Shown here piece by piece: positions 1,104 to 62,621 of a stretch of 64,000 nt of DNA (within the stretch, counting starts at the first letter, position 1; each line of letters starts with the position of its first letter). The notes beneath the pieces were generated by a model, which was not told where the DNA came from, made no database searches, and saw only the letters and a program-made list of their open reading frames with translations. Origin of the DNA: Salipaludibacillus sp. LMS25 (GTDB taxonomy: Bacteria > Bacillota > Bacilli > Bacillales > Salisediminibacteriaceae); the NCBI RefSeq assembly GCF_024362805.1, contig NZ_CP093299.1:2512001-2576000 (forward strand), in the 5' to 3' direction. A program made the translations under genes and the position numbers.

Positions 1104-1260
1104 ATAAAGCTAAGCTTCAATCAGTGGGCGTTTTCCTTCATCCCCACTGATTGTTCGTTTAACTTATGGGACCTTTAGGGGTAGTTTATCCCCACCTAAA
1201 CTGTTCGATCTTCTTAAGTTTTGAGGTGAGGGTTTTACTGCCCCTTAAGAGTGGGATAAA
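1104..1260 (-). repeat. Family A repeat, copy 2 (the only inverted copy)
   Basis: Complete element reading on the minus strand, from ATAAAGC at 1104 to GGGATAAA at 1260. It carries all four arms of the long hairpin, though one outer-arm base differs (ACTACCCC for ACTGCCCC), plus the second hairpin. It is the only one of 14 family A copies in this orientation. Confidence 0.95.
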
Positions 1261-1642: not shown

Positions 1643-1752
1643 TTCTTATCACGAGAGGTGGAGGGAAAGGCCCTAAGAAACCTCAGCAACCAGCCGGCTT
1701 TATGCGGTCAGGTGCTAATTCCTGCAAGAAGACAACTTGCAAAGATAAGGAG
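1643..1752 (+). ncRNA. SAM-I (S-box) riboswitch
   Basis: Contains the conserved S-box core. TTCTTATC (1643-1650) pairs with GATAAGGA to form P1, and inside lie CGAGAGGTGGAGGGA, GGCCC, AAACCTCAGCAACC and the GGTGCTAATTCC segment. S-adenosylmethionine binding normally stabilises P1 and lets the downstream terminator form, turning methionine genes off. It precedes metI-metC-yitJ-metH, the expected targets. Confidence 0.97.
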
Positions 1753-9598: not shown

Positions 9599-9865
9599 AT
9601 AGTGAGAGACGAGACGTTGTTTTCATGATATTTTAAAGAACAATAAGTGCGATAAACACGTGATTTTGAATCGCCAATAAGTAAGCAAAAAACCTTACAA
9701 ATTAGCCGTTATTTAAAGACTTCTTTGTGGAAACTAGCGTATGGTAGCTTGAAGAGAAAGCTGATCCCTATTTCGTATCAGTGAAAACAAATAAAAAGAG
9801 AGACACCTTTAATTGATACTAACTTAAACAACAAGAAGAGCATTTAACTGAATTATGACATAGTT
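9599..9865. other. Intergenic after metH, nothing recognised
   Basis: No gene-like frame, no strong terminator hairpin directly behind metH, and no repeat copy up to about 9866. Confidence 0.4.
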
Positions 9866-9971
9866 TGTCTCAGATAACCGCCCGTAAAACTCCCGGTTTA
9901 AAATAGAGGAGAGCTAACGGACGCTCATGTCCTGATTCACTCAACTCCCACTGATTGAAGCTTAGCTTTAT
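9866..9971 (+). repeat. Family B/A hybrid repeat remnant
   Basis: Starts like family B (AGATAACCG, then AAAACTCCCGG and AAAATAGAG) and has lost the inner right arm. It continues with ACGGACGCT and GTCCTGATTCACTCA of family B, then ends with the family A right end CCCACTGATTGAAGCTTAGCTTTAT split across 9949-9971. The mixed composition shows that left and right halves of the two families can be exchanged. Confidence 0.75.
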
Positions 9972-10164: not shown

Positions 10165-10423
10165 CTTATAATACGGTGGCTAATCAAGTTTTTTACATGT
10201 CACTTCAAATTAGAACGTCATTATTTCCTAATTTAACCTTGAATATTTTCCATTGTTATGTAGGGGAGGTGCATCTAAATTAATAGAAAGGGAGAACCTC
10301 ATAGGTACTAATTCCTTTATGAATTTTCATCCACTGTATCCGCAGTAACTTCATGGTTGAATATAAAATTCCTCCAAGTAAAATTTGGAATAATAATGTA
10401 GCTTTTAATTAATAGTCATTAGT

Positions 10424-10581
10424 TTATCCCACTCTTAAGGGTCAGTAAAACCCCCACCTCAAAACTTAAGAAGGTCGAAACGTTTAGGTGGGGGATAAAC
10501 TGCCCCTAAAGGTCCCATAAGTTAAACGAACAATCAGTGGGGGATGACGGAAAACTCCCACTGATTGAAGCTTAGCTTTAT
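10424..10581 (+). repeat. Family A repeat, copy 3
   Basis: Complete element, TTATCCC to GCTTTAT. One outer-arm mismatch (GGGTCAGT against ACTGCCCC). It lies 8 bases beyond the stop codon of the minus-strand metallophosphoesterase. Confidence 0.95.
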
Positions 10582-11446: not shown

Positions 11447-11860
11447 AACAATCAATCCTTTTCTATAGGCATGTATGCTCTCAAGATCAATAGCAAGAAT
11501 AATAAGAAATTTGTTTTTACACCAGCCATCACAATTGCCTCAGTAAAAGCTAAAGCTACTTCACACATTTTGAATAAAATAAGTTTCTTCAACGAGATCA
11601 ACTTCAGCAGCAGGCATCGGTGTTATTGGAGATGAATCATCTTGTGCAGGTAATTGGATAATTTCTAAATTTTCTAAACAGAAATATTCATTCTTTATCA
11701 TTATATCTTTTTCTGTTAATAAGTTAATCTATTTCTATTACTTGGCGCTTTAAATGTAAAAACTATTATCTCATGCCGATGCTTGAGAGATAAGTGTTCA
11801 TTCACTAGGGCATAATAGCTGATTACAATAAAGTAGAAATTATTATCCTTTTTTTGTTTT
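11447..11860. other. Intergenic, nothing firmly recognised
   Basis: AT-rich spacer upstream of the metallophosphoesterase. Short minus-strand frames look like gene debris, but none can be assigned. Confidence 0.3.
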
Positions 11861-12017
11861 TACCCCACTCTTAAGGGTCAGTAAAACCCCCATCTCAAAA
11901 CTTAAGAAGATCGACAAGTGTAGGTGGGGGATAAACTGCCCCTAAAGGTCCCATAAGTTAAACGAACAATCAGTGGGGGATGAAGGAAAATTCCCACTGA
12001 TTGAAGCTTAGCTTTAT
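11861..12017 (+). repeat. Family A repeat, copy 4
   Basis: Complete element, with TACCCCACT in place of the usual TTTATCCCACT at the left end and GCTTTAT at the right. The outer arm has the same GGGTCAGT variant as copy 3. Confidence 0.93.
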
Positions 12018-13153: not shown

Positions 13154-13249
13154 ATGTATCACTCCATAAAAAGGATTTACTTTATATTTTAGTTGAGAAA
13201 GATAATCATTGTCAATTAAAATCTCTTGTAAAGTGACAATCTTAGGTGA

Positions 13250-13291
13250 AAGCTAACGGGCGCTAAAGTCCTGATTGAAGGTTCGTTTTAT
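13250..13291 (+). repeat. Family B repeat remnant (right end)
   Basis: Only the B right end remains: AGCTAACGGGCGCTAAAGTCC, then TGATTGAAGGTTCGTTTTAT. It lies about 70 bases before ppaC. Confidence 0.7.
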
Positions 13292-14355: not shown

Positions 14356-14508
14356 TTTATCACAGCTAATCGTAACAGCCGTCTCAAAATAGAGAGCAGA
14401 GCTAAATCTATATAGGCGGGAGCTAACGGAGGCTAATGTCCTGGTTCACTCACCTACCAATCAGTGGGAGATGAAGGGAAACTCCCACTGATTGAAGCTT
14501 AGCTTTAT
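14356..14508 (+). repeat. Family B/A hybrid repeat
   Basis: Left part is a worn family B (TTTATCACAGCTAAT, CTCAAAATAGAGAG, TAGGCGGGAG, GGCTAATGTCC and TTCACTCACCTACC). The right end is family A (AATCAGTGGG, CCCACTGATT, GAAGCTTAGCTTTAT). It begins about 50 bases after ppaC and ends 31 bases before the EamA gene. Confidence 0.85.
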
Positions 14509-15440: not shown

Positions 15441-15555
15441 TGCTGAAAAAAATGGGTTTAGTGTTGAAAAATAATGAGTTGGTGCTGAAAAAAAACGAGG
15501 CTACTGCTGAAAAATGGTGAGTTATTGCTGAAAAAATCGGTATGACTGCTGAAAC
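15441..15555 (+). repeat. 21-bp-period TGCTGAAA array, locus 1
   Basis: TGCTGAAA (once TGTTGAAA) recurs at 15441, 15462, 15483, 15505, 15526 and 15547: six units at 21-22 bp spacing with unlike spacers. It starts about 20 bases after the EamA stop and ends just before a family A copy. A second six-unit array lies at 37456-37566. Function unknown. Confidence 0.85.
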
Positions 15556-15560
15556 CACCA

Positions 15561-15719
15561 TTTATCCCACTCTTAAGGGGCAGTAAAACCCCCACCTCAA
15601 AACTTAAGAAGGTCGAAACGTTTAGGTGGGGGTTAAACTGCCCCTAAAGGTCTGATAAGTTAAACGAACAATCAGTGGGGGATGAAGGAAAACTCCCACT
15701 GATTGAAGCTTAGCTTTAT
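15561..15719 (+). repeat. Family A repeat, copy 5
   Basis: Complete element with intact GGGGCAGT/ACTGCCCC and CCCCCACCT/AGGTGGGGG arms. Its last bases (TTTAT) contain the complement of the TAA stop codon of the minus-strand permease gene, so element and gene abut with a shared codon. Confidence 0.96.
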
Positions 15720-21681: not shown

Positions 21682-21905
21682 ATTATCCATGAAGCAAATG
21701 CTTGTGAGGATCAGATCAATATGTTATTAGTCAGTATTCCACCCAAGTTAAGTGTTTCTCAATTCATGGGTTCCTTAAAAGGAAAACGTAGTCTTATGAT
21801 ATTTGATCGACATGCCAATTTGAAATATCGATACGGGAACCGGAAGTTCTGGTGTCGGGGTTTCTATGTTGATACAGTGGGCAGAAATAAGAAACAAAGG
21901 TGGTG
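21682..21905 (+). pseudogene. IS200/IS605-type transposase (TnpA, Y1) remnant
   Basis: Translation from about 21688 gives HEANACEDQIN, MLLVSIPPKLSVSQFMG, then MIFDRHANLKYRYGN and FWCRGFYVDTVGRN, a close match to the C-terminal half of IS200-family TnpA from memory. The N-terminal half is missing, and the frame leaves the family after GRNKK. The HUH metal motif, normally H-I-H before the MLVSIPP strand, reads Q-I-N, so both catalytic histidines are lost. Inactive relic, but it shows that this transposase family has visited the region. Confidence 0.8.
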
Positions 21906-21910
21906 GAGAA

Positions 21911-22095
21911 ATGAAAGTTCAAAAAGTAGTTGTTGAGGAAAAAATCATATCCATTATACATACTACTAGACAAAAGTTTTGAAGTGGTAGAACCGGTTAA
22001 AAGATATATAAAGTACTTGGATAATACGGGGAAAGCGCCAAATACGATTAAAACAAATTGTTATCATCTCAGCTGTTTTATGAATTTATCCCGGC
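21911..22095 (+). pseudogene. Tyrosine-recombinase (Tn554 TnpA-like) N-terminal remnant
   Basis: An ATG at 21911 opens MKVQKVVVEEKIISI. After a one-base frameshift near 21977 the next frame reads EPVKRYIKYLDNTGKAPNT and then IKTNCYHL. This resembles the N-terminal arm-binding/SAM-like part of Tn554-type tyrosine recombinases. The frame then runs into a family A repeat at 22085, which interrupts it. The catalytic domain is absent. Confidence 0.6.
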
Positions 22096-22222
22096 AGTAA
22101 AACCCCCACCTGAAAACTTAAGGAGATCGAAAAGTTTAGGTGGGGGATAAACTGCCCCTAAAGGTCCCATAAGTTTCAGTGGGGATGAAGGAAAACTCCC
22201 ACTGATTGAAGCTTAGCTTTAT
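22085..22222 (+). repeat. Family A repeat, copy 6 (internally deleted)
   Basis: Both arm pairs are kept, but ACTCTTAAGG near the left end and TAAACGAACAA before the second hairpin are missing, giving 138 bp. It sits between two fragments of a Tn554-like element. Confidence 0.92.
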
Positions 22223-25769: not shown

Positions 25770-25835
25770 ATAAAAACGAACCTTCAATCAATGGGAGAAG
25801 TACGGAAACTCCCACTGATTGAAGGTTCGCTGTAT
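25770..25835. repeat. Family B right ends joined head to head (66-bp palindrome)
   Basis: AACGAACCTTCAATCAATGGGAG on one side is the inverted counterpart, with few mismatches, of CTCCCACTGATTGAAGGTTCG on the other, around a short centre (AAGTACGGAAA). Each half is a family B right end. The whole could fold into one hairpin. It joins the IS3 remnant to the chemoreceptor promoter region. Confidence 0.75.
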
Positions 25836-34087: not shown

Positions 34088-34187
34088 ATTGTGAGCTCAT
34101 GTTCCATTCTAACATGTTTATAAGTGATCGCAAGGATTTTTATTAAAAAAAGTTATGAAACTATAATAATTACAAAGTGTTTTCCTT

Positions 34188-34346
34188 TTTATCCCACTCT
34201 TAAGGGGCAGTAAAACCCCCACCTCAAAACTTAAGAAGAGCGACAAATTTAGGTGGGGGATAAACTGCCCCTAAAGGTCCCATAAGTTAAACGAACAATC
34301 AGTGGGGGATGAAGGAAAACGCCCACTAATTGAAGCTTAGCTTTAT
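34188..34346 (+). repeat. Family A repeat, copy 7
   Basis: Complete element with intact long-hairpin arms; the second hairpin has one change (CCCACTAATT). It lies about 100 bases upstream of the Fur box relative to the minus-strand operon. Confidence 0.95.
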
Positions 34347-35592: not shown

Positions 35593-35621
35593 GGGACACG
35601 AATTTTCTCAGACCAACCTGT

Positions 35622-35779
35622 TCATCCCACTCTTAAGGGGCAGTAAAACCCCCACCTCAAAACTTAAGAAGAGCGACAAGTTTAGGTGGGGGATAAACTA
35701 CCCCTAAAGGTCCCATAAGTTAAACGAACAATCAGTGGGGGATGAAGGAAAACGCCCACTGATTGAAGCTTAGCTTTAT
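35622..35779 (+). repeat. Family A repeat, copy 8
   Basis: Complete element starting TTCATCCCACT, 30 bases after uppP. The right outer arm reads ACTACCCC (one mismatch). Its right end directly touches a protein-like frame at 35780. Confidence 0.95.
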
Positions 35780-37455: not shown

Positions 37456-37566
37456 TGCTGAAATCAGGGTATGATGCTGAAAATCCAGCGTGTGATGCTG
37501 AAAAATCAGAGTGTATTGCTGAAAATACAGAGTTCATTGCTGAAAACCCAAGTTGAACTGCTGAAA
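37456..37566 (+). repeat. 21-bp-period TGCTGAAA array, locus 2
   Basis: TGCTGAAA recurs at 37456, 37475, 37496, 37517, 37538 and 37559, six units at 19 then 21 bp spacing, with spacers of little mutual similarity. It lies between two convergent genes (spoVAF and mgtE), about 15 bases beyond the mgtE stop. Same motif and period as the array at 15441. Confidence 0.85.
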
Positions 37567-37580
37567 AATCCCACTAAAGT

Positions 37581-38942
37581 CTATAAATAAGCAATTAGGG
37601 AAGTGGCAATTGAAAAGTAAATGAGCAACCCGATAATATCGTTCACGGTCGTAATAAAAGGTCCTGAGGCAATCGCAGGATCAAGCTTCATCTTATTAAT
37701 CGCTAGTGGAACGAGTGTCCCAATAACAGTCGCGATACTAAGAGAGAGGAAAATAGAGACCCCAACAATAAAAGCGAGCCAAACGCTACCGTGTAAAAAT
37801 GGAATAATGATCATTAACGTGATAGCACACATTAAGCCAAGCATCAGTCCCGTGCTAAATTCCCTCATGACCATTTTACTGAGACTTTTCTTTTCAAGCT
37901 GTCCAAGAGCAAGCGACCGGACAGCGACAGCTAATGATTGGGTTCCGGTGTTACCGGCTGAGTCCATAATTAACGGTATAAACCCGGCAAGAAGAACGAC
38001 CGATTCAAGTGTTTCTTCAAATTGTCCTATAACTCCTGCTGTTATCATGCCAAAAAACATAAGCAGAATAATCCAAGGAGCCCGTTTTTTAGCTGCTGAG
38101 AATGCTGAAAGTGTTAAATCTGTTGCCCCTCTTGAAGCGGCAAATTCACCGAAGTCTTCAGTGGCTTCTTCCTCCATAACATCAAGGATGTCATCAACCG
38201 TAATAATACCAACGAGTTTATTCGCTTCCGTTGTGACAGGTACAGCAAGAAAATCATATTTTTTAAATAAGTTAGCAACGTTTTCTTGATCTTCACTTGT
38301 GGGAACGGACACGACGCGGGAGCTCATCACTGTTTTAACAAGGTTGTTAGGATCAGAGGTGATTAAATCACGTAGTGAGACAACACCCACAAGTTCAAAT
38401 TTTTCGTTAATAACGTACAAATAATAAATGGTCTCTGCATCTGGTCCCTCTTGGCGCAATAATTCAATGACTTCTTTTATAGTAGACGAGGCGCGTAAGC
38501 TAATGAATTCCTTTGTCATGATCGCACCGGCAGTCTCTTCTTCATAAGCGAGGAGCTCTTTAATATCTTGCGCATCTTTTTCCTCTAAGCCTTCGATAAT
38601 AGCTGAGGCTTTCGTTTCATGAATTTCACCGAGGAAATCAGCTACATTGTCGGCTGACATATGTGAGATCATCTCTTGTGCATATGTGTCATCTAATTCC
38701 TGTAAATATTTTTTTTGATCAGCTATTTGAAGCTCTTCAAAGATCTCCGCAAATTCTTCAGGCGATAAATACTCATATAATTTTCGACGTTGAGAGTGAG
38801 ACATTGTTAAATAGACATCCAATTGATCTTGTGGATGGAGTTCAAAGAAAAGTTGTCTAAACTGCTGAATATTTTCAGCGTTAATTGCTCTTAAAATGGA
38901 TTGTGCATAGTCGTGACGATTTTGTTTTGTTAATTTAACCAT
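37581..38942 (-). CDS. mgtE: Magnesium transporter MgtE
   Basis: Magnesium channel of 453 residues. Order of parts: N-terminal helical Mg-sensing domain (about 1-135), two CBS domains (about 136-260; FISLRASSTIKEVIELL and VVSVPTSEDQENVANLF), a linking helix, and five membrane spans with the GNTGTQSLAV pore signature. High internal Mg closes the channel through the first two domains. An M-box riboswitch upstream adds control at the RNA level. CCTCC on the + strand marks the AGGAGG ribosome site just before ATG 38942. Confidence 0.95.
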   Translation of the reverse strand: MVKLTKQNRHDYAQSILRAINAENIQQFRQLFFELHPQDQLDVYLTMSHSQRRKLYEYLSPEEFAEIFEELQIADQKKYLQELDDTYAQEMISHMSADNVADFLGEIHETKASAIIEGLEEKDAQDIKELLAYEEETAGAIMTKEFISLRASSTIKEVIELLRQEGPDAETIYYLYVINEKFELVGVVSLRDLITSDPNNLVKTVMSSRVVSVPTSEDQENVANLFKKYDFLAVPVTTEANKLVGIITVDDILDVMEEEATEDFGEFAASRGATDLTLSAFSAAKKRAPWIILLMFFGMITAGVIGQFEETLESVVLLAGFIPLIMDSAGNTGTQSLAVAVRSLALGQLEKKSLSKMVMREFSTGLMLGLMCAITLMIIIPFLHGSVWLAFIVGVSIFLSLSIATVIGTLVPLAINKMKLDPAIASGPFITTVNDIIGLLIYFSIATSLIAYL

Positions 38943-39181: not shown

Positions 39182-39222
39182 AGAATCTCATGTTAAATAA
39201 CCCATAATGAATTGCGTCATTA

Positions 39223-39380
39223 TGCCACCTCCATTCGTAGAGCTTTAGCACTGTATGGCATAGGGCGATGCCAGCTGCATTAAAAATCACCTTAAGTCGA
39301 TGATCTCTGTTGACCCATTGGCGTCTTTGGACATTTTTGGGCAGCAGCGTATCTCCATACAGGAGCCTCACCTAACGAGG
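39223..39380 (-). ncRNA. M-box (ykoK) magnesium riboswitch
   Basis: The minus strand carries the conserved M-box blocks: CTCGTTAGGTGAGGCTCC, GGAGATACGCTGCTGCCC, GTCCAAAGACGCCAATGGG, AGGTGATTTTTAATGC and the closing CTAAAGCTCTACG. High Mg stabilises the fold and lets the downstream terminator form. Its target is mgtE. Confidence 0.95.
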
Positions 39381-39400
39381 TTTCTTTAGTTGTCAGTGGA

Positions 39401-39498: not shown

Positions 39499-39656
39499 TT
39501 TATCCCACTCTTAAGGGGCAGTAAAACCCCCACCTCAAAACTTAAGAAAGTCGAAACGTTTAGGTGGGGGATAAACTGCCCCTAAAGGTCCCATAAGTTA
39601 AACGAACAATCAGTGGGGATGAAGGAAAACGCCCACTGATTGAAGCATAGCTTTAT
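39499..39656 (+). repeat. Family A repeat, copy 9 (reference copy)
   Basis: Arms are easily seen. The outer stem is GGGGCAGT (39515-39522) with ACTGCCCC (39575-39582), and the inner stem is CCCCCACCT (39527-39535) with AGGTGGGGG (39562-39570). An AAAA/ATAA internal loop separates the two stems, and a 26-base apical loop caps the structure. The second hairpin is AATCAGTGGG (39608-39617) with CCCACTGATT (39632-39641). Ends are TTTAT and CTTTAT. It lies just upstream of the mgtE promoter. Confidence 0.97.
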
Positions 39657-39991
39657 GAAATATGCATGCATCTATCGAGCTCCCGCTTGAGCACTGTTGT
39701 GGAGTTGGAAGAGAGGCATTTCTATCTTCACCAACAAGGCTACAATCTCTTCCTCTTTTTTTCTACCCACTAACACTATACTCTAACTTTAAAATAAAAA
39801 GGATTAGACTAATAAAAAGCTCATATGATAAAAAAAAGACTTAGTCACGACATTTACATGTGGCAGTTTTACGCATTTTTCATTATACTTTATGGTTGAC
39901 GAGTTTTTTAACCTAACTGAAGTGCACGCTTCAAAAGACTGACCTCAGCTTATCAGGTCAATCTTACTATTTTAAAAAAAGAGGGAAAACA
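39657..39991. other. Intergenic upstream of murB
   Basis: AT-rich. Contains a small hairpin, TGACCT (39940-39945) with AGGTCA (39955-39960), just before the murB ribosome site; no clear promoter was identified. Confidence 0.35.
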
Positions 39992-40921
39992 ATGACTAAT
40001 ATGATGATATATAACGAATTAACAGCAATCTGTGGAGAAAATAATGTCTTTATAGATGAACCGATGTCCCACCATACATTAACAAAAATTGGAGGAAAAG
40101 CCGATGTATTTGTGACGCCACAAACGTATGAGCAAGTAGCTGACGTTGTCCGACTAAACGCCAACTATCATCTGCCATTTATGCTTCTAGGTAACGGTTC
40201 CAATATGATCGTGAAAGATGGTGGGGTACGTGGATTAGTGATGTATATGTCCCATTTATCAAGTGTGCGTGTCGAAGGGACTCAGTTGACTGCTCAAGGA
40301 GGGGCTGGGATTATCCATGCTGCACAAATAGCCCTTGAGCACAGTTTGACAGGACTTGAATTTGCTTGCGGTATTCCTGGATCTGTAGGCGGGGCAATGG
40401 TTATGAATGCAGGTGCCTATGGAGGAGAAGTGAAAGATGTGATTGACCACGTGAAGGCTGTCACGCCTACAGGTGACTTAGTCATACTTAACAAAGAGGA
40501 CTTAGCGTTGGACTATCGCACGAGTATCATAGGGAAAAAGCACTATATTGTATTGGAGGCGGTGTTTAAACTGGAGAAAGGGGACGCCGCTGAGATTAAA
40601 GAAAAAATGGCTGATCTTACTTATCGCAGAGAGTCAAAGCAACCATTGGAGTATCCGTCTGTAGGAAGTGTTTTTAAACGTCCGCCAGGTTATTTTGCGG
40701 GAAAGCTCATCCAAGATAGCGGATTACAAGGGAAAGGTGTTGGGGGAGCGGAAGTGTCCACTAAACATGCTGGTTTTATTGTAAATAAAAATAATGCAAC
40801 CGCAGCAGATTATATTGCGACAATTGACATGGTCCGTGAAACGGTTAAGCAAACATTTGGCGTAGAATTGGAATTGGAAGCGAAAATAGTTGGAGAGGAT
40901 CTAACGGAGACGGCTGACTAA
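39992..40921 (+). CDS. murB: UDP-N-acetylenolpyruvoylglucosamine reductase MurB
   Basis: FAD/NADPH-dependent reductase of 309 residues that makes UDP-N-acetylmuramate in peptidoglycan synthesis. FAD-binding stretches are LLGNGSNMIVKDGG near 67-80 and CGIPGSVGGAMVMNAGAYGG near 126-145. Active-site residues lie in YRRESKQPL and GSVFKRPPG (proton-donor Ser), with the terminal Glu in ELEAKIVG. It stands alone rather than in a division/cell-wall cluster, so a second murB elsewhere is possible. AGAGGG precedes ATG 39992. Confidence 0.94.
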   Translation: MTNMMIYNELTAICGENNVFIDEPMSHHTLTKIGGKADVFVTPQTYEQVADVVRLNANYHLPFMLLGNGSNMIVKDGGVRGLVMYMSHLSSVRVEGTQLTAQGGAGIIHAAQIALEHSLTGLEFACGIPGSVGGAMVMNAGAYGGEVKDVIDHVKAVTPTGDLVILNKEDLALDYRTSIIGKKHYIVLEAVFKLEKGDAAEIKEKMADLTYRRESKQPLEYPSVGSVFKRPPGYFAGKLIQDSGLQGKGVGGAEVSTKHAGFIVNKNNATAADYIATIDMVRETVKQTFGVELELEAKIVGEDLTETAD

Positions 40922-41050
40922 ACGACTAGATTTTCTGCTTAGTGTAAAAGGTTTCTACTGAAAGATGTGTGTTAATTTGCTTAGGACAAGCCTAGCTGAT
41001 AAACTCTTTATATAAGGAAGTAATTATATGATGGGAAGGCGGTGTCCACA

Positions 41051-41407
41051 ATGAACATGGTGAACTCACAATCACTCACTGACTACGCTCAGTTATTTAA
41101 GCTCATGAATGATGAAAATCGCTTGAAAATCCTTCTTTATTTAAATGAAAAAGAATTATGTGTTTGTAACATCATCGATTTGTTAGACATGAGCCAGCCG
41201 GCAGTAAGCCAGCATTTAAAACGCCTAAGGGACGCCTCTTTAATAAAAATGCGCAGCCACGGACAATGGAAATTTTACAGCTTAAATGAAGAGGGACCAC
41301 ATAGTGAATTTGTTAAAAAAATTCTTGCTGAACTCCCTTCTGCCCGTGAGGACGTGGAGGCTTTAAATTCGAATGGAAAGCTTGTCATTTGTACGACTGT
41401 AGACTAG
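41051..41407 (+). CDS. ArsR/SmtB-family metal-sensing repressor
   Basis: Winged-helix repressor of about 118 residues. The recognition region reads MSQPAVSQHLKRLRDASLI, and the sensor motif ELCVCN has Cys37 and Cys39 at the alpha-3 position where ArsR binds As(III)/Sb(III). A further Cys lies in the C-terminal VICTTVD. No ars efflux or reductase gene is adjacent, so the regulated gene is elsewhere or the protein acts only on itself. ATG 41051 follows GGCGG; the GTG at 41042 is less well placed. Confidence 0.85.
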   Translation: MNMVNSQSLTDYAQLFKLMNDENRLKILLYLNEKELCVCNIIDLLDMSQPAVSQHLKRLRDASLIKMRSHGQWKFYSLNEEGPHSEFVKKILAELPSAREDVEALNSNGKLVICTTVD

Positions 41408-41500
41408 ATAAATCTGTACCGATATAAAAGTCAGGTTGTAATATAGTGCGAAGAAAGTATTAATGTAAGATTAAAAAGTAAAGAACGAGGCGCTCCTAAA

Positions 41501-41548
41501 ACGGGACTGTTTAGTGATGGCATGTGTCACTAAGTAGTCCTGTTTTTT
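41501..41548 (+). terminator. Terminator after arsR-like gene
   Basis: ACGGGACT and TTTAGTGA pair with TCACTAA and AGTCCTGT in a two-part stem, followed by TTTTTT. Confidence 0.8.
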
Positions 41549-41601
41549 AATGCGTATTACGATATAATGCCCAATAGATCATCTGATGTTCTTCTTTTAC
41601 C

Positions 41602-41750
41602 TTTATCACAGATAACCGTCCGAAAGACTCCGGTCTGAAAAGAGGAGAGATAAAACAATAAAGGTGGGAGATAACGGACGTTCATGTCCTGATTCACTCA
41701 CCTACCAATCAGTGGGAGAAGAAACCCCCACTGATTGAAGGGGCGTTTTA
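41602..41750 (+). repeat. Family B repeat, long copy
   Basis: TTTATCACAGATAACCGTCCG at the left, an outer stem closing with CGGACG, inner arms partly worn (GACTCCGGTCT against AGGTGGGAG), then CACTCACCTACC, the second hairpin AATCAGTGGG/CCCACTGATT and the right end GGGGCGTTTTA. It shows that a full family B has the same two-hairpin plan as family A. Confidence 0.88.
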
Positions 41751-41971
41751 GCATATTAAATTTTGTTAACACGTTAATGGCGGCTTGATTATCATGACGA
41801 CACTGAAGTAGATGATGAAGAAAACAAATTTGTCATCAAGTTGGATACATAAAGAAGCAGACGTCGGCTCTACTAGGAGATGTAATGAATAATAGGCTTA
41901 GGTTAATACAGGTTTACTTAAAAAACTCGCCTTTCAGAAAAAGACGAGGACGATCAGTGGTGAGGAGCTTA
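41751..41971. other. Intergenic, nothing recognised
   Basis: Spacer downstream of the ferritin-like gene; no clear terminator or gene-like frame. Confidence 0.35.
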
Positions 41972-42403
41972 TTAGAGTCTCGGGTCGTCTAGCAACCGTT
42001 CCATTTCTTCTTTATGGACGGTTTCATCGGCAATAAAATCGTCTAACTTTACAACGAGTTCTGTTAAACCGAGGGCTTCGGCTTGTTCCTTCCGTTGTTC
42101 GTATCGATCAATCGTTTCTTTCTCAGCTTTGAGAGCTTCTTCTAGCATATCCTTCACATCGGTCAGCTGTTTTACGTTAGCTGGCGTCGTTGTAGGCTGT
42201 CCTCCCAACGTCTTAATTTTTTCAGAAAGGTAGAGGGCGTGTCCAGTTTCGTCTTTTACTTCCCCTTCAAAAAAAGGCTTTAAAACTTGGCGATAAAGAC
42301 CAGACACGACTGCGGCGTTGTAGGTGTACATAATGACAGCGGCATATTCATTAGCAAGGTCTTCGTTCAGTCCGGCAATGAGTTCTTTCATTTTTGCATC
42401 CAT
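41972..42403 (-). CDS. Ferritin-like (bacterioferritin-type) diiron protein
   Basis: Four-helix-bundle protein of 143 residues. Diiron ligands fit E19 (NEYAAVIMY), E52 and H55 (DETGHALYL), a Glu in the KAEKETIDRYEQ helix, and E/H in the IADETVHKEEME helix. The haem Met of true bacterioferritin is not evident. It may store iron or protect against peroxide, or scavenge oxygen; the exact role is not decided by sequence. Single gene, with a family B copy upstream. Confidence 0.8.
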   Translation of the reverse strand: MDAKMKELIAGLNEDLANEYAAVIMYTYNAAVVSGLYRQVLKPFFEGEVKDETGHALYLSEKIKTLGGQPTTTPANVKQLTDVKDMLEEALKAEKETIDRYEQRKEQAEALGLTELVVKLDDFIADETVHKEEMERLLDDPRL

Positions 42404-42478
42404 TCATCGTTCATCCTTTCATACTCTGATATTTTCGAGCTAGTACTTAATTTCCACAATAAGCAAAAAAATAAACCC

Positions 42479-42589
42479 TTTATCACAGATAACCGTCCGA
42501 AAAACTCCCGCCTCAAAATAGAGAGGGGGATAAATTTATTTAGGCGGGAGATAACGGATGCTAATGTCCTGATTGCAGGTTTGTTTTAT
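42479..42589 (+). repeat. Family B repeat, short reference copy
   Basis: TTTATCACAGATAA, outer CCGTCCG (42493-42499) with CGGATG (42555-42560), inner CTCCCGCCT (42505-42513) with AGGCGGGAG (42542-42550) as a perfect 9-bp stem, an AAAA/ATAA internal loop, then a short right end to TTTTAT. The second hairpin is deleted. The plan matches family A although the arms differ. Confidence 0.92.
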
Positions 42590-46805: not shown

Positions 46806-46962
46806 TTTATCCCACTCTTAAGGGGCAGTAAACCCCCTCTCAAAACTTAAGAAGATCGACAAGTTTAGGTGGGGGATAAACTGCCCCTAAAGGTCCCATA
46901 AGTTAAACGAACAATCAGTGGGGGATGAAGGGAAACGCCCACTGATTGAAGCTTAGCTTTAT
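46806..46962 (+). repeat. Family A repeat, copy 10
   Basis: Complete element, but the inner left arm is shortened (CCCCCTCT for CCCCCACCT), leaving a weaker inner stem. It shares this variant with copy 11, about 930 bp away, suggesting that the two are recent relatives. Confidence 0.95.
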
Positions 46963-47518: not shown

Positions 47519-47759
47519 AATAATCCCTCCATTTTTAGTTTTATTGTCTTTAATACTAGTAATATTCTCATTGGTTTTGCTAAGATCAACAAGTGTAAAT
47601 AATACTGAAGATTATCAAGAAGCACTTGATCTAACAAAAGAGGGAGCATTTGAAACTCCTTTCATAATAACTGATAATTATGTAGATGAAAACGGTAATT
47701 TTGTAACTGAATATGAATATTTAGATGAAGTAATTTATCCCACTCTTAAGGGGCAGTAA
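47518..47759 (+). pseudogene. Membrane-protein gene truncated by a family A repeat
   Basis: A frame reading IIIPPFLVLLSLILVIFSLV (membrane segment), then TEDYQEALDLTKEGAFETPF and YVDENGNFVTEYEYLDEV looks like a real anchored extracellular protein. It runs straight into family A copy 11 at 47734 and stops inside it at 47757. Its own start overlaps the divergent lipoprotein gene and has no ribosome site. Both ends therefore appear disrupted. Function unknown. Confidence 0.5.
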
Positions 47760-47891
47760 ACCCCCCTCTCAAAACTTAAGAAGATCGACAAGTTTAGGTG
47801 GGGGCTAAACTGCCCCTAAAGGTCCCATAAGTTAAACGAACAATCAGTGGGGGATGAAGGAAAACGCCCACTGATTGAAGCTTAGCTTTAT
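47734..47891 (+). repeat. Family A repeat, copy 11
   Basis: Complete element with the same shortened inner left arm (CCCCCCTCT) as copy 10. The left TTTAT falls inside the frame of the truncated membrane-protein gene. Confidence 0.95.
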
Positions 47892-49955: not shown

Positions 49956-50849
49956 GTGAATCAGCATAAAGAAGGGCGTATTAAGGAAGCGGGCATTAAA
50001 CTTTTTTCTGAGAAAGGTTTTGAGGCTACGTCTGTTCAAGATATTGCCAATGAATGTGGCATGTCAAAAGGGTCTTTTTATTCCTATTTTAAATCAAAAG
50101 ATGCTTTATTAGTGACGATATTAACGCATTATTATCGTATGATAGAAAAAAAAATTAAAAAAGTTGACCAGATGGGGTTACAGCCAAGAGAAGCATTTGT
50201 TATACAATTGACTCACTTTTATGAAGGGGTCTATGAACATAAAGAATTCATTATCACACATGCTTATGAACAAGTGCCACCGTTAAATGCCACTGTTAAA
50301 AGGATGATCTTACATATTCAAACTAAAAGAAGGGCGTTTTACCGTCGCAGTTTATATAGAATATTTGGTGAACAGGTAACACCCTATTTATGGGATTTAG
50401 CTATTATGTTAGAAGGTATATTACATGCATTCATCCGTATGTTCCTACAAGATGAAAAGGAGCTGCAAGTAGAAGAGCTAGTAAAATACGCTGTAAATCG
50501 CATCGATAGCATTGTAGAAGGTATGATTTACAATAACGAAGGGCCTATCCTGCAAGAAAGTGAAGTGATTCCTCCGACAAACATGTTTAACATGTCACTA
50601 GCCAGTGTTAGGAGCCGAGTCACTGATCTAATAACACTAATAAAGGATGAACTGCAGGAAAGCCCTCATATCGAAGAGTATCGCATGTCACTTGACGTGA
50701 TAGAAGAAGAGTTGGCTAGGGAATCGCCTCGACAGCCTGTTATTAAAGGCATGTTATCTAATCTGGACGATATTAAAGTCGTAGAGGTTTATATAGAAGA
50801 GCTTAAACGTTTACTACAGATAACAGTCCAAAAAACTTCCACTGATTGA
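49956..50849 (+). CDS. TetR/AcrR-family regulator
   Basis: Long TetR protein of 297 residues. The helix-turn-helix (about 25-48) reads TSVQDIANECGMSKGSFYSYF. The extended C-terminal region has amphipathic helices (VYIEELKRLL) beyond the normal 190-200 residues. GTG 49956 follows AAAGGAAGG. Two matching operators upstream suggest self-control, perhaps with khtTU. The last 13 codons (LLQITVQKTSTD and stop) lie inside a family B remnant that starts at about 50810, so the original C-terminus has been replaced. Confidence 0.85.
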   Translation: MNQHKEGRIKEAGIKLFSEKGFEATSVQDIANECGMSKGSFYSYFKSKDALLVTILTHYYRMIEKKIKKVDQMGLQPREAFVIQLTHFYEGVYEHKEFIITHAYEQVPPLNATVKRMILHIQTKRRAFYRRSLYRIFGEQVTPYLWDLAIMLEGILHAFIRMFLQDEKELQVEELVKYAVNRIDSIVEGMIYNNEGPILQESEVIPPTNMFNMSLASVRSRVTDLITLIKDELQESPHIEEYRMSLDVIEEELARESPRQPVIKGMLSNLDDIKVVEVYIEELKRLLQITVQKTSTD

Positions 50850-50861
50850 GGGGCGTTTTAT
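50810..50861 (+). repeat. Family B repeat remnant fused to family A
   Basis: Left end like family B (TTTACTACAGATAACAGTCC, AAAAAACT) joined by internal deletion to a right end (CCACTGATTGAGGGGCGTTTTAT). It supplies the end of the TetR reading frame and shares its terminal TTTAT with the following family A copy. Confidence 0.8.
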
Positions 50862-50965
50862 CCCACTCTTAAGAGGCAGTAAACCCCCACCTCAAAACTT
50901 AAGAAGGTCGAAAAGTTTAGGTGGGGGATGAAGGAAAACTCCCACTGATTGAAGCTTAGCTTTAT
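50857..50965 (+). repeat. Family A repeat, copy 12 (internally deleted)
   Basis: Inner arms CCCCCACCT/AGGTGGGGG and the right end are kept. About 50 bases carrying the right outer arm and the left half of the second hairpin are missing. It begins at the TTTAT that closes the family B remnant. Confidence 0.92.
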
Positions 50966-57551: not shown

Positions 57552-57673
57552 GTATCGGTTTCAGAATAGTATTTATAAGGGTGTTCCTATGTTAGTTATC
57601 GTTATGATAAAATCTTTGATTAAATACACGCCGCGGTAAATTCCTGCAGCAGAAATCTTGTATTACTTAAATA

Positions 57674-57759
57674 ATGAAAGCCCTGCCTCTCTTTCATCCT
57701 TGCGGTTCCGTAACCGCGCCAGTGTAACTTATGGCGTTTCCACGTGTTCCCAGGATTCC
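57674..57759 (-). ncRNA. Candidate structured RNA, family unknown
   Basis: Three compact hairpins follow one another: ATGAAAG/CTTTCAT (57674-57697), GCGGTT/AACCGC with a 4-base loop (57702-57717), and CGCCA/TGGCG (57717-57736). The last two are enclosed by ATCCT (57696-57700) pairing with AGGAT (57752-57756), giving a junction. Upstream on the minus strand lies a TTGACT (57874-57869), and downstream the terminator at 57551-57519. No coding frame spans it. It does not match the riboswitch cores I know. Strand and function are inferences. Confidence 0.4.
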
Positions 57760-58950: not shown

Positions 58951-59109
58951 TTTATCCCACTCTTAAGGGTCAGTAAAACCCCCACCTCAAAACTTAAGAA
59001 GGTCGAAAAGTTTAGGTGGGAGATAGACTGCCCCTAAAGGCCCGATAAGTTAAACGAACAATCAGTGGGGGATGAAAGAAAACGCCCACTGATTGAAGCT
59101 TAGCTTTAT
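58951..59109 (+). repeat. Family A repeat, copy 13
   Basis: Complete element, with GGGTCAGT in the outer left arm and AGGTGGGAG in the inner right arm (one mismatch each). Confidence 0.95.
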
Positions 59110-62463: not shown

Positions 62464-62621
62464 TTTATCCCCCTTTTAAGGGGCAGTAAAACCCCCACCT
62501 CAAAACTTAAGAAGGTCGAAACGTTTAGGTGGGGGATAAACTGCCCCTAAAGGTCCCATAAGTTAAACGAACAATCAGTGGGGATGAAGGAAAACGCCCA
62601 CTGATTGAAGCTTAGCTTTAT
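62464..62621 (+). repeat. Family A repeat, copy 14
   Basis: Complete element with intact inner and outer arms. The left flank reads CCCCCTTTTAAGGGG, so the outer stem can be extended with CCCCTAAAGG. It lies between two convergent genes. Confidence 0.96.

Follow-up and report, generated by a model that had tools for sequence, protein, structure and literature searches.

Two sets of hairpins with the same design and different arm sequences lie between positions 39499 and 42589 of the window, the 64-kb stretch of the Salipaludibacillus sp. LMS25 genome that we analysed (G000:C1:2512001-2576000; the genome, G000, is 4.53 Mb in a single contig). The closest named relatives of its murB protein, at 76-78%, are from Salipaludibacillus, which places the genome in or beside that genus. 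What keeps this fold while its arms change, and does it act as RNA or as single-stranded DNA (ssDNA)? We find that the two sets, families A and B, belong as branches to a single family of mobile DNA elements, which are non-coding and non-autonomous. These elements probably move as folded ssDNA through an enzyme supplied in trans, for which a Y1 transposase is the most likely candidate.

A tiered fold built from different arms

A first-pass annotation, made from the sequence alone, had proposed that families A and B keep one fold with different arms. The interval contains one A element and two B elements:

39499-39656, + strand: family A element, TTTAT to TTTAT, the copy named in the first-pass annotation (direct reading and folds)
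39515-39582, + strand: hairpin 1 of this copy, outer arms 39515-39522/39575-39582, inner arms 39527-39535/39562-39570 (direct reading and folds)
39608-39641, + strand: hairpin 2, at the right end of this copy, AATCAGTGGG/CCCACTGATT (direct reading and folds)
41602-41751, + strand: family B, long form; in the sister-species genomes G005 and G001 the aligned site has one TTTAT and no element
42479-42589, + strand: family B, short form without hairpin 2 (direct reading and fold)

In the A copy, the outer arms GGGGCAGT (39515-39522) and ACTGCCCC (39575-39582) are separated by the linkers AAAA and ATAA from the inner arms CCCCCACCT (39527-39535) and AGGTGGGGG (39562-39570), and hairpin 2 pairs AATCAGTGGG (39608-39617) with CCCACTGATT (39632-39641). 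The fold of this copy has a z-score of -7.0 as RNA and -7.2 as DNA, and none of 200 shuffles was as stable in either case. The short B copy has outer arms CCGTCCG and CGGATG with one G.T pair, inner arms CTCCCGCCT/AGGCGGGAG and a left linker of AAAAA, and its DNA fold has a z-score of -3.7. The long B copy has CGGACG exactly, inner arms that pair imperfectly (CTCCGGTCT/AGGTGGGAG), AAAGG at the end of the loop, hairpin 2 and a right pentamer of TTTAG. Direct reading of the copies and their folds therefore bears out the central proposal, and the finer details hold in only some copies. The B outer arms given as CCGTCCG/CGGACG are exact in the long copy and not in the short one, the AAAA/ATAA linkers assigned to both families are those of the A copy and not the left linker of the short B copy, and the loop described as CAAAA...TTTAGG in both families ends differently in the long B copy.

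The AAAA/ATAA internal loop had also been regarded as fixed and as the best candidate for a protein contact. These linkers are frequent near A and B but not general across the family, where we also observe AAGA/AATAA (L188), AAAA/TCA (L182:6348) and AGA/TCT (L182:6002), the last of which could pair and would close the gap. With the loop varying in this way across the family, the proposal of a protein contact finds no support, and nothing singles the loop out as a contact.

A family of intergenic elements across the Bacilli

The elements are mostly ~110-165 nt long and intergenic. From 5′ to 3′, TTTAT is followed by a short CCC-rich leader and by hairpin 1, in which A-rich linkers separate the outer from the inner stem and the loop is variable; a spacer then leads to hairpin 2 and to a tail that resembles GAAGTTTCACTTTAT and closes with CTTTAT. 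This order is kept in relatives from other genera, whose arms and loop differ. Outer-arm pairs across the branches include GGGGCAGT/ACTGCCCC, CGGGCAGT/ACTGCCCG, CGGGCTGT/ACAGCCCG, CAGGCTGT/ACAGCCTG, CGGACAGT/ACTGTCCG and CGTCCGT/ACGGACG, and L258 has a 10-bp helix (AAGTTCAACT/AGTTGAACTT) as the lower tier of its hairpin 2. Copies at L184, L185, L189 and L190 of genome G041 have an extra ~50 nt between hairpins 1 and 2 that appears by eye to be capable of forming hairpins.

Carriers of the family account for 47 of 398 sampled Bacilli genomes and 28 of 146 genera. One partial member, L183, comes from an unusual host: its record (CP079755.1) is titled plasmid pNY3A of the enterobacterium Klebsiella grimontii; foreign DNA or an assembly mix is possible there. 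In the window, profile searches matched 17 A and 6 B elements spread throughout, and the full copies lie on the + strand with one exception. Across the whole of G000, a 23-base right-end pattern allowing up to 3 mismatches gave 527 matches (256 forward, 271 reverse), and the same pattern read backwards gave 0 on either strand. Given the profile matches in the window and the 527 genome matches against none in the control, the repeats are not a product of chance. A profile search of 1.044 Mb of G000 (the window and 49 stretches of 20 kb) recovered 122 A and 86 B copies or pieces; 203 of these 208 are not mainly within an open reading frame (ORF), and 5 are mostly inside one. No Rfam family matched above its gathering score over any element.

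Covariation and selection on the fold

The first-pass annotation had taken the paired changes as a sign of selection on folded RNA or ssDNA. In an alignment of 33 sequences (A1), for which RNAalifold gave a structure of 21 pairs, two-sided change occurs in 10 pairs against 5.9 expected (1 of 500 shuffles as high) and in 61 cells against 25.1 expected (0 of 500 shuffles as high). In the three inner-stem pairs, change is confined to one side. Paired cells reach 93.7%, compared with 84.2% in shuffles and 36-50% in slid versions, over which the structure is favoured by having been derived from those same sequences. A larger set of 49 diverse copies over 158 columns was aligned with MAFFT after removing near-identical rows and then one misaligned row, L244 (50 to 49), and analysed with a tree-aware test, a home-made imitation of R-scape that used 60 simulated sets. 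Of 11,935 column pairs, 3 reached E<0.05: 17-83 and 21-79 in the outer stem and 111-142 in hairpin 2, canonical in 48/49, 45/48 and 48/48 copies, respectively. The highest null score, 49.5, exceeds that of the third of these pairs, 49.1. Of the 25 column pairs with the highest scores, 11 fall on the helix diagonals, i+j=100 for hairpin 1 (lower tier 10-90 and 12-88) and i+j=252/253 for hairpin 2 (lower tier 100-152), and 14 lie off them; the diagonal pair 7-93 is canonical in only 11/49. Compensatory change is thus confirmed in both alignments, and all three pairs from the larger one fall in helices. This is the outcome that the first-pass annotation had asked of a covariation check, subject here to the limits of a home-made test and of a third pair scoring just under the top null value.

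Within a single genome, the pattern is of another kind. We compared 103 A copies of G000, mostly young (77 near-full-length copies from the sample and 26 of the 30 best BLAST loci). They have 1.05 private substitutions per copy and none in 43 of the 103, and family A has been recently amplified in G000. Stems received 31 of 85 private substitutions against 41% expected (p=0.44). The rate at G/C positions is 0.61 per site in stems and outside alike, and at A/T positions it is 0.50 in stems and 0.73 outside. Changed stem pairs comprise 83 broken cells, 53 changed on one side and still paired, and 1 compensated; avoidance of stems was also not found for variants shared among at least 3 copies (12/30 in stems, p=1.0). 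Since private mutations do not spare the stems, the fold appears to be maintained by the copies that move and not by the copies that stay, with no sign of a job at each site. Selection on the fold, as first proposed, therefore stands in a refined form and looks like selection for moving.

These data bear directly on whether the elements are structured RNAs kept at each site for gene regulation. The strong fold and the covariation are what such RNAs would present, and excerpts of a study of two B. cereus strains, where bcr repeats are found, report transcription of 84/165 and 62/155 bcr copies of all 18 kinds (PMC3446304; this and all other sources given by PMC number are cited from excerpts). 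Nonetheless, private mutations strike the stems freely, and sites are empty in sister species. Together with the arrangement of flanking ORFs described below, this makes a regulatory RNA very improbable. Strong covariation in an intergenic repeat need not imply a functional RNA at each site.

Insertion beside TTTAT

The remaining matches in the window, together with a transposase gene fragment, are as follows:

4-116, + strand: family A, 5′ end outside the window
1104-1260, - strand: family A, the sole full minus-strand copy in the window
9864-9971, + strand: family B, internal deletion
10423-10581, + strand: family A
11858-12017, + strand: family A, left pentamer TTTAC
13242-13291, + strand: family B fragment
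14356-14508, + strand: family B, long form; G005 and G001 both lack it at the corresponding place, where there is no clean single TTTAT
15561-15719, + strand: family A; G005 and G001 have an empty site here, with one TTTAA
17549-17695, + strand: family B, ends degraded
21685-21897, + strand: IS200-type Y1 transposase gene fragment
22085-22222, + strand: family A, shortened
25774-25835, + strand: right end of an element
34187-34346, + strand: family A; B element at the aligned place in G001
35621-35779, + strand: family A, with TTCAT as its left pentamer; G005 and G001 both have B elements at this place in the alignment
46806-46962, + strand: family A
47734-47891, + strand: family A
50808-50965, + strand: B remnant then a short A copy head-to-tail, one TTTAT in common
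58951-59109, + strand: family A
62464-62621, + strand: family A

Two occupied sites are cleanly empty in both sister species. At 15561, G005 and G001 read ...CATTTAAATCTCCCC..., and the window reads ...CATTTAT, an element ending in TTTAT, and ATTTCCCC...; at 41602, the sisters have one TTTTAT followed by CATA, and the window has TTTAT, the element and CATA. Insertion thus occurred beside one TTTAT or TTTAA at intergenic sites. The element at 14356 is absent from both sisters, and its junction is not a clean TTTAT. Five neighbouring copy pairs overlap by 5 bases, with TTTAT in common in four and TTTAC in one, and L405 includes the start of a third copy in tandem. At 34187 and 35621, where the window has A elements, B elements stand in G001 (both sites) and G005 (35621), through reuse of TTTAT or through replacement. 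From empty sites, tandems and copy number, we read the copies as mobile.

The terminal pentamers are most regular in family A, where TTTAT flanks 98/107 copies on the left and 106/112 on the right, compared with 44/71 and 41/64 in family B. A miniature inverted-repeat transposable element (MITE), mobilized by a DDE-type transposase that works on double strands and leaves a 5-bp duplication of its TTTAT target, would give much the same picture. An empty site has one pentamer and a filled site two, which fits 5-bp duplication and single-strand joining alike, since target and element end are nearly always the same word and a joining reaction that keeps the donor pentamer looks like a duplication. 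Among the 52 scored pairs of family B, 2 deviate identically at left and right (TATAT and GTTAT), as expected under target duplication; in family A, one side deviates in 10 of 101 pairs and none of the 10 is matched. The elements also have no terminal inverted repeats, their ends being CCCACTC... and ...GCTTAGC. We consider a MITE quite unlikely, a judgement to which the orientation of the copies also contributes.

Orientation follows the replication fork

In G000, dnaA lies at 1.89 Mb and GC skew changes sign at 1.88-2.02 Mb and 4.20-4.30 Mb, from which the terminus was taken as 4.25 Mb; genes were approximated by ORFs of at least 90 aa. With these landmarks, the share running with the replication fork is 86% for elements (179 of 208) and 73% for ORFs (631 of 868; p=5e-6). 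Of the 27 elements whose flanking ORFs are both directed against the fork, 24 nevertheless run with it (p=5e-5 against one half). In each of the sisters G005 and G001, whose origins were placed by mgtE synteny, 13 of 14 scored copies run with the fork. The 195 flank pairs, in the element's frame, show no fixed arrangement (+,+ 85; -,- 40; -,+ 37; +,- 33). Element orientation thus follows the fork and is largely independent of the flanking ORFs, contrary to what a site-by-site regulatory RNA would lead one to expect. A DDE transposase predicts neither this ORF-independent orientation nor a fold on one strand whose polarity is fixed.

The lagging-strand template is the strand running in the direction of the fork. 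The fork-linked orientation favours ssDNA over RNA, and we infer that ssDNA is the acting form. Excerpts of the IS200/IS605 literature describe excision from, and insertion into, the lagging-strand template through single strands (PMC6006769), and in another study 22 IS605 copies in Halanaerobium had no lagging-strand preference (PMC7290912). In the mechanism we propose, the fold-carrying strand would be exposed in the lagging-strand template, where an enzyme supplied in trans would recognise the hairpins and cut twice, once after the TTTAT on the left and once after the TTTAT that ends the element itself. The excised single strand would then be joined into another TTTAT in ssDNA at the fork, and the inserted copy would decay with no visible selection on its fold. 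The best candidate for this enzyme is a Y1 (HUH) transposase of the IS200/IS605 kind.

Search for the mobilizing enzyme

Y1_Tnp was searched in G000, 14 relatives, 398 Bacilli genomes and 45 carriers. At E<=1e-3, 43 of the 55 carrier genomes tested have a match, fragments counted. The Y1 genes of G000 are four intact 161-aa IS200-type copies of equal score and two fragments, one of them at 21685-21897. Of the intact copies (L031-L034), three follow TTTAT and one TTTTT, and their hairpins and right ends are unlike those of A and B; the resident element may thus share the target pentamer but not the ends. Across 121 Y1/TnpB loci, the family profile found only ordinary copies lying nearby (L031, L034, L035, L036 and L324) and, at L348, one degraded copy adjoining a TnpB gene. 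PF01385 was not found in G000, and PF07282 is present in 25 and absent in 29 of 54 carriers, a set that excludes G000. Overall, no partner enzyme was found by the Y1_Tnp, PF01385 and PF07282 searches in the genomes covered.

Two more specific ideas, a class-2 Y1 as the mover and a guide in the ATAA linker, were also rejected. Class-2 Y1 genes (~190-270 aa) occur in G002, G003, G004, G006 and G007, which have no A match, and none was shown in G000, G001 or G005, which carry A. IS200/IS605 elements are described as having subterminal hairpins whose foot carries guide bases (PMC6006769). In family A the ATAA linker complements TTTAT, and such a guide is not retained in other branches. Other guide-like words precede the hairpins, TTAAC before stem 1 in 24/49 copies and ACTAAC[AC] before hairpin 2 in 30/49, with bases that may pair.

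Several observations weigh against movement as ssDNA by a Y1 enzyme. Y1_Tnp finds no match at E<=1e-3 in 12 of the 55 carriers, among them G001 and G005, which have 227 and 292 first-look A candidates. At E<=1e-15, Y1 is only mildly commoner in carriers (29/47 vs 147/351, p=0.012, uncorrected for kinship). The ends of 14 resident IS200/IS605 copies (4 in G000, 6 in G199, 2 in G197 and 2 in G045) differ from those of the family, and the family profile found nothing on 20 Y1/TnpB loci of carriers, of which only those in G199, G197 and G045 had their ends determined. The guide-like words TTAAC and CTAAC overlap positions that seem to be paired (10-90 and 12-88). As for mobility itself, only 4 of 10 junction alignments are clean (two sites in two genomes), four of the remainder being poor or involving a cut element; the pentamer counts at empty and filled sites and the two matched B pairs suit target duplication, and no excision or transposition has been observed.

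The mover may be gained and lost while its passengers stay, or else the enzyme is of another kind. Haloquadratum offers a possible parallel for the former, in that the excerpted report describes strain-specific insertions although the IS200-type genes of one strain are all pseudogenes (PMC3119063), and loss of the mover with passengers remaining may apply there. For the latter, it is conceivable, if doubtful, that these are Bacilli-wide minimal single-strand transposons, with bcr1 as one branch, served by an unrecognised non-Y1 enzyme that would read the two tiered hairpins and cut after TTTAT at both ends. A tyrosine recombinase or other host enzyme acting on the folded single strand, as at integron attC sites, has wording in its favour in PMC6542083 and would accommodate tandem copies that share one site and carriers without any Y1 match; nothing ties such an enzyme to the family, no search for recombinases having been made, and we consider it unlikely. 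On balance, movement as folded ssDNA through an enzyme in trans, most likely of the Y1 class, remains the probable explanation, for elements that resemble bcr1 and would work in the manner of the PATEs (palindrome-associated transposable elements) of IS200/IS605.

Other features of the window

The window also contains several other features. An M-box magnesium riboswitch (39222-39386, - strand, 143 bits) lies between the A element at 39499 and the gene at 37581-38942 (- strand), which we take to be mgtE-like. A SAM riboswitch is found at 1643-1751 (+ strand) upstream of a gene run, and a match to the small RNA BsrC at 57661-57747 (+ strand). Arrays of a 21-bp repeat lie at 15446-15563 and 37461-37575, with TGCTGAAAA in most units; units like those of the first array are also present at that place in G005 and G001.

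Comparison with known systems

The closest description in the literature is that of bcr1 (BCR group A), which is reportedly ~155 bp long with TTTAT at each end; the present family shares these terminal pentamers. The comparison is by description and not by sequence, and homology is likely. Like our family, bcr1 is described in the excerpts as short, intergenic, structured, mobile and the most abundant BCR, with a TTTAT motif (PMC6542083, PMC8725734, PMC3446304) that is tied to BCR mobility (PMC6542083). It is also described there as specific to the B. cereus group (PMC6542083, PMC8725734), whereas the present family occurs in 28 of 146 Bacilli genera, a difference of range and not of kind.

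IS200/IS605 elements such as IS608 and ISDra2 share with the family the fork-linked orientation, the subterminal hairpins and insertion beside a short fixed target. Unlike them, the family elements have no internal transposase gene and the same pentamer at both ends, and no cognate autonomous element was found. Repetitive extragenic palindromes (REPs) and their TnpA-REP system are similar in the many intergenic hairpins per genome, but the aligned family has no GT[AG]G foot and the Y1 matches in G000 are IS200-type. The family also agrees with the definition of palindrome-associated transposable elements (PATEs) given in the excerpts, having no terminal inverted repeats, palindromes near both ends and too little length for a transposase (PMC3119063), although the right palindrome is absent from short B copies. 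PATEs also make no target duplication, and here the single pentamer of empty sites and the two of filled sites suit either model. PATE palindromes are said to resemble those of the IS605 type (PMC3119063), whereas the resident IS200/IS605 ends we examined are unlike the family's, and hairpin 1 of the present family is tiered and long, unlike that of PATEs.

We did not find the fork-linked orientation, the Bacilli-wide range or an IS200/IS605 link of bcr1-like repeats in the literature searched, which was covered in part and lay outside the founding 2004 and 2011 papers, and this is not proof of novelty. The portions of the BCR literature seen call the repeats mobile and leave the mover unnamed. 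A fork-linked orientation that ORF direction does not explain points the search for that mover to ssDNA at the fork, and in contrast to the B. cereus group-specific range described for bcr1, the Bacilli-wide range of the family offers many tractable hosts.

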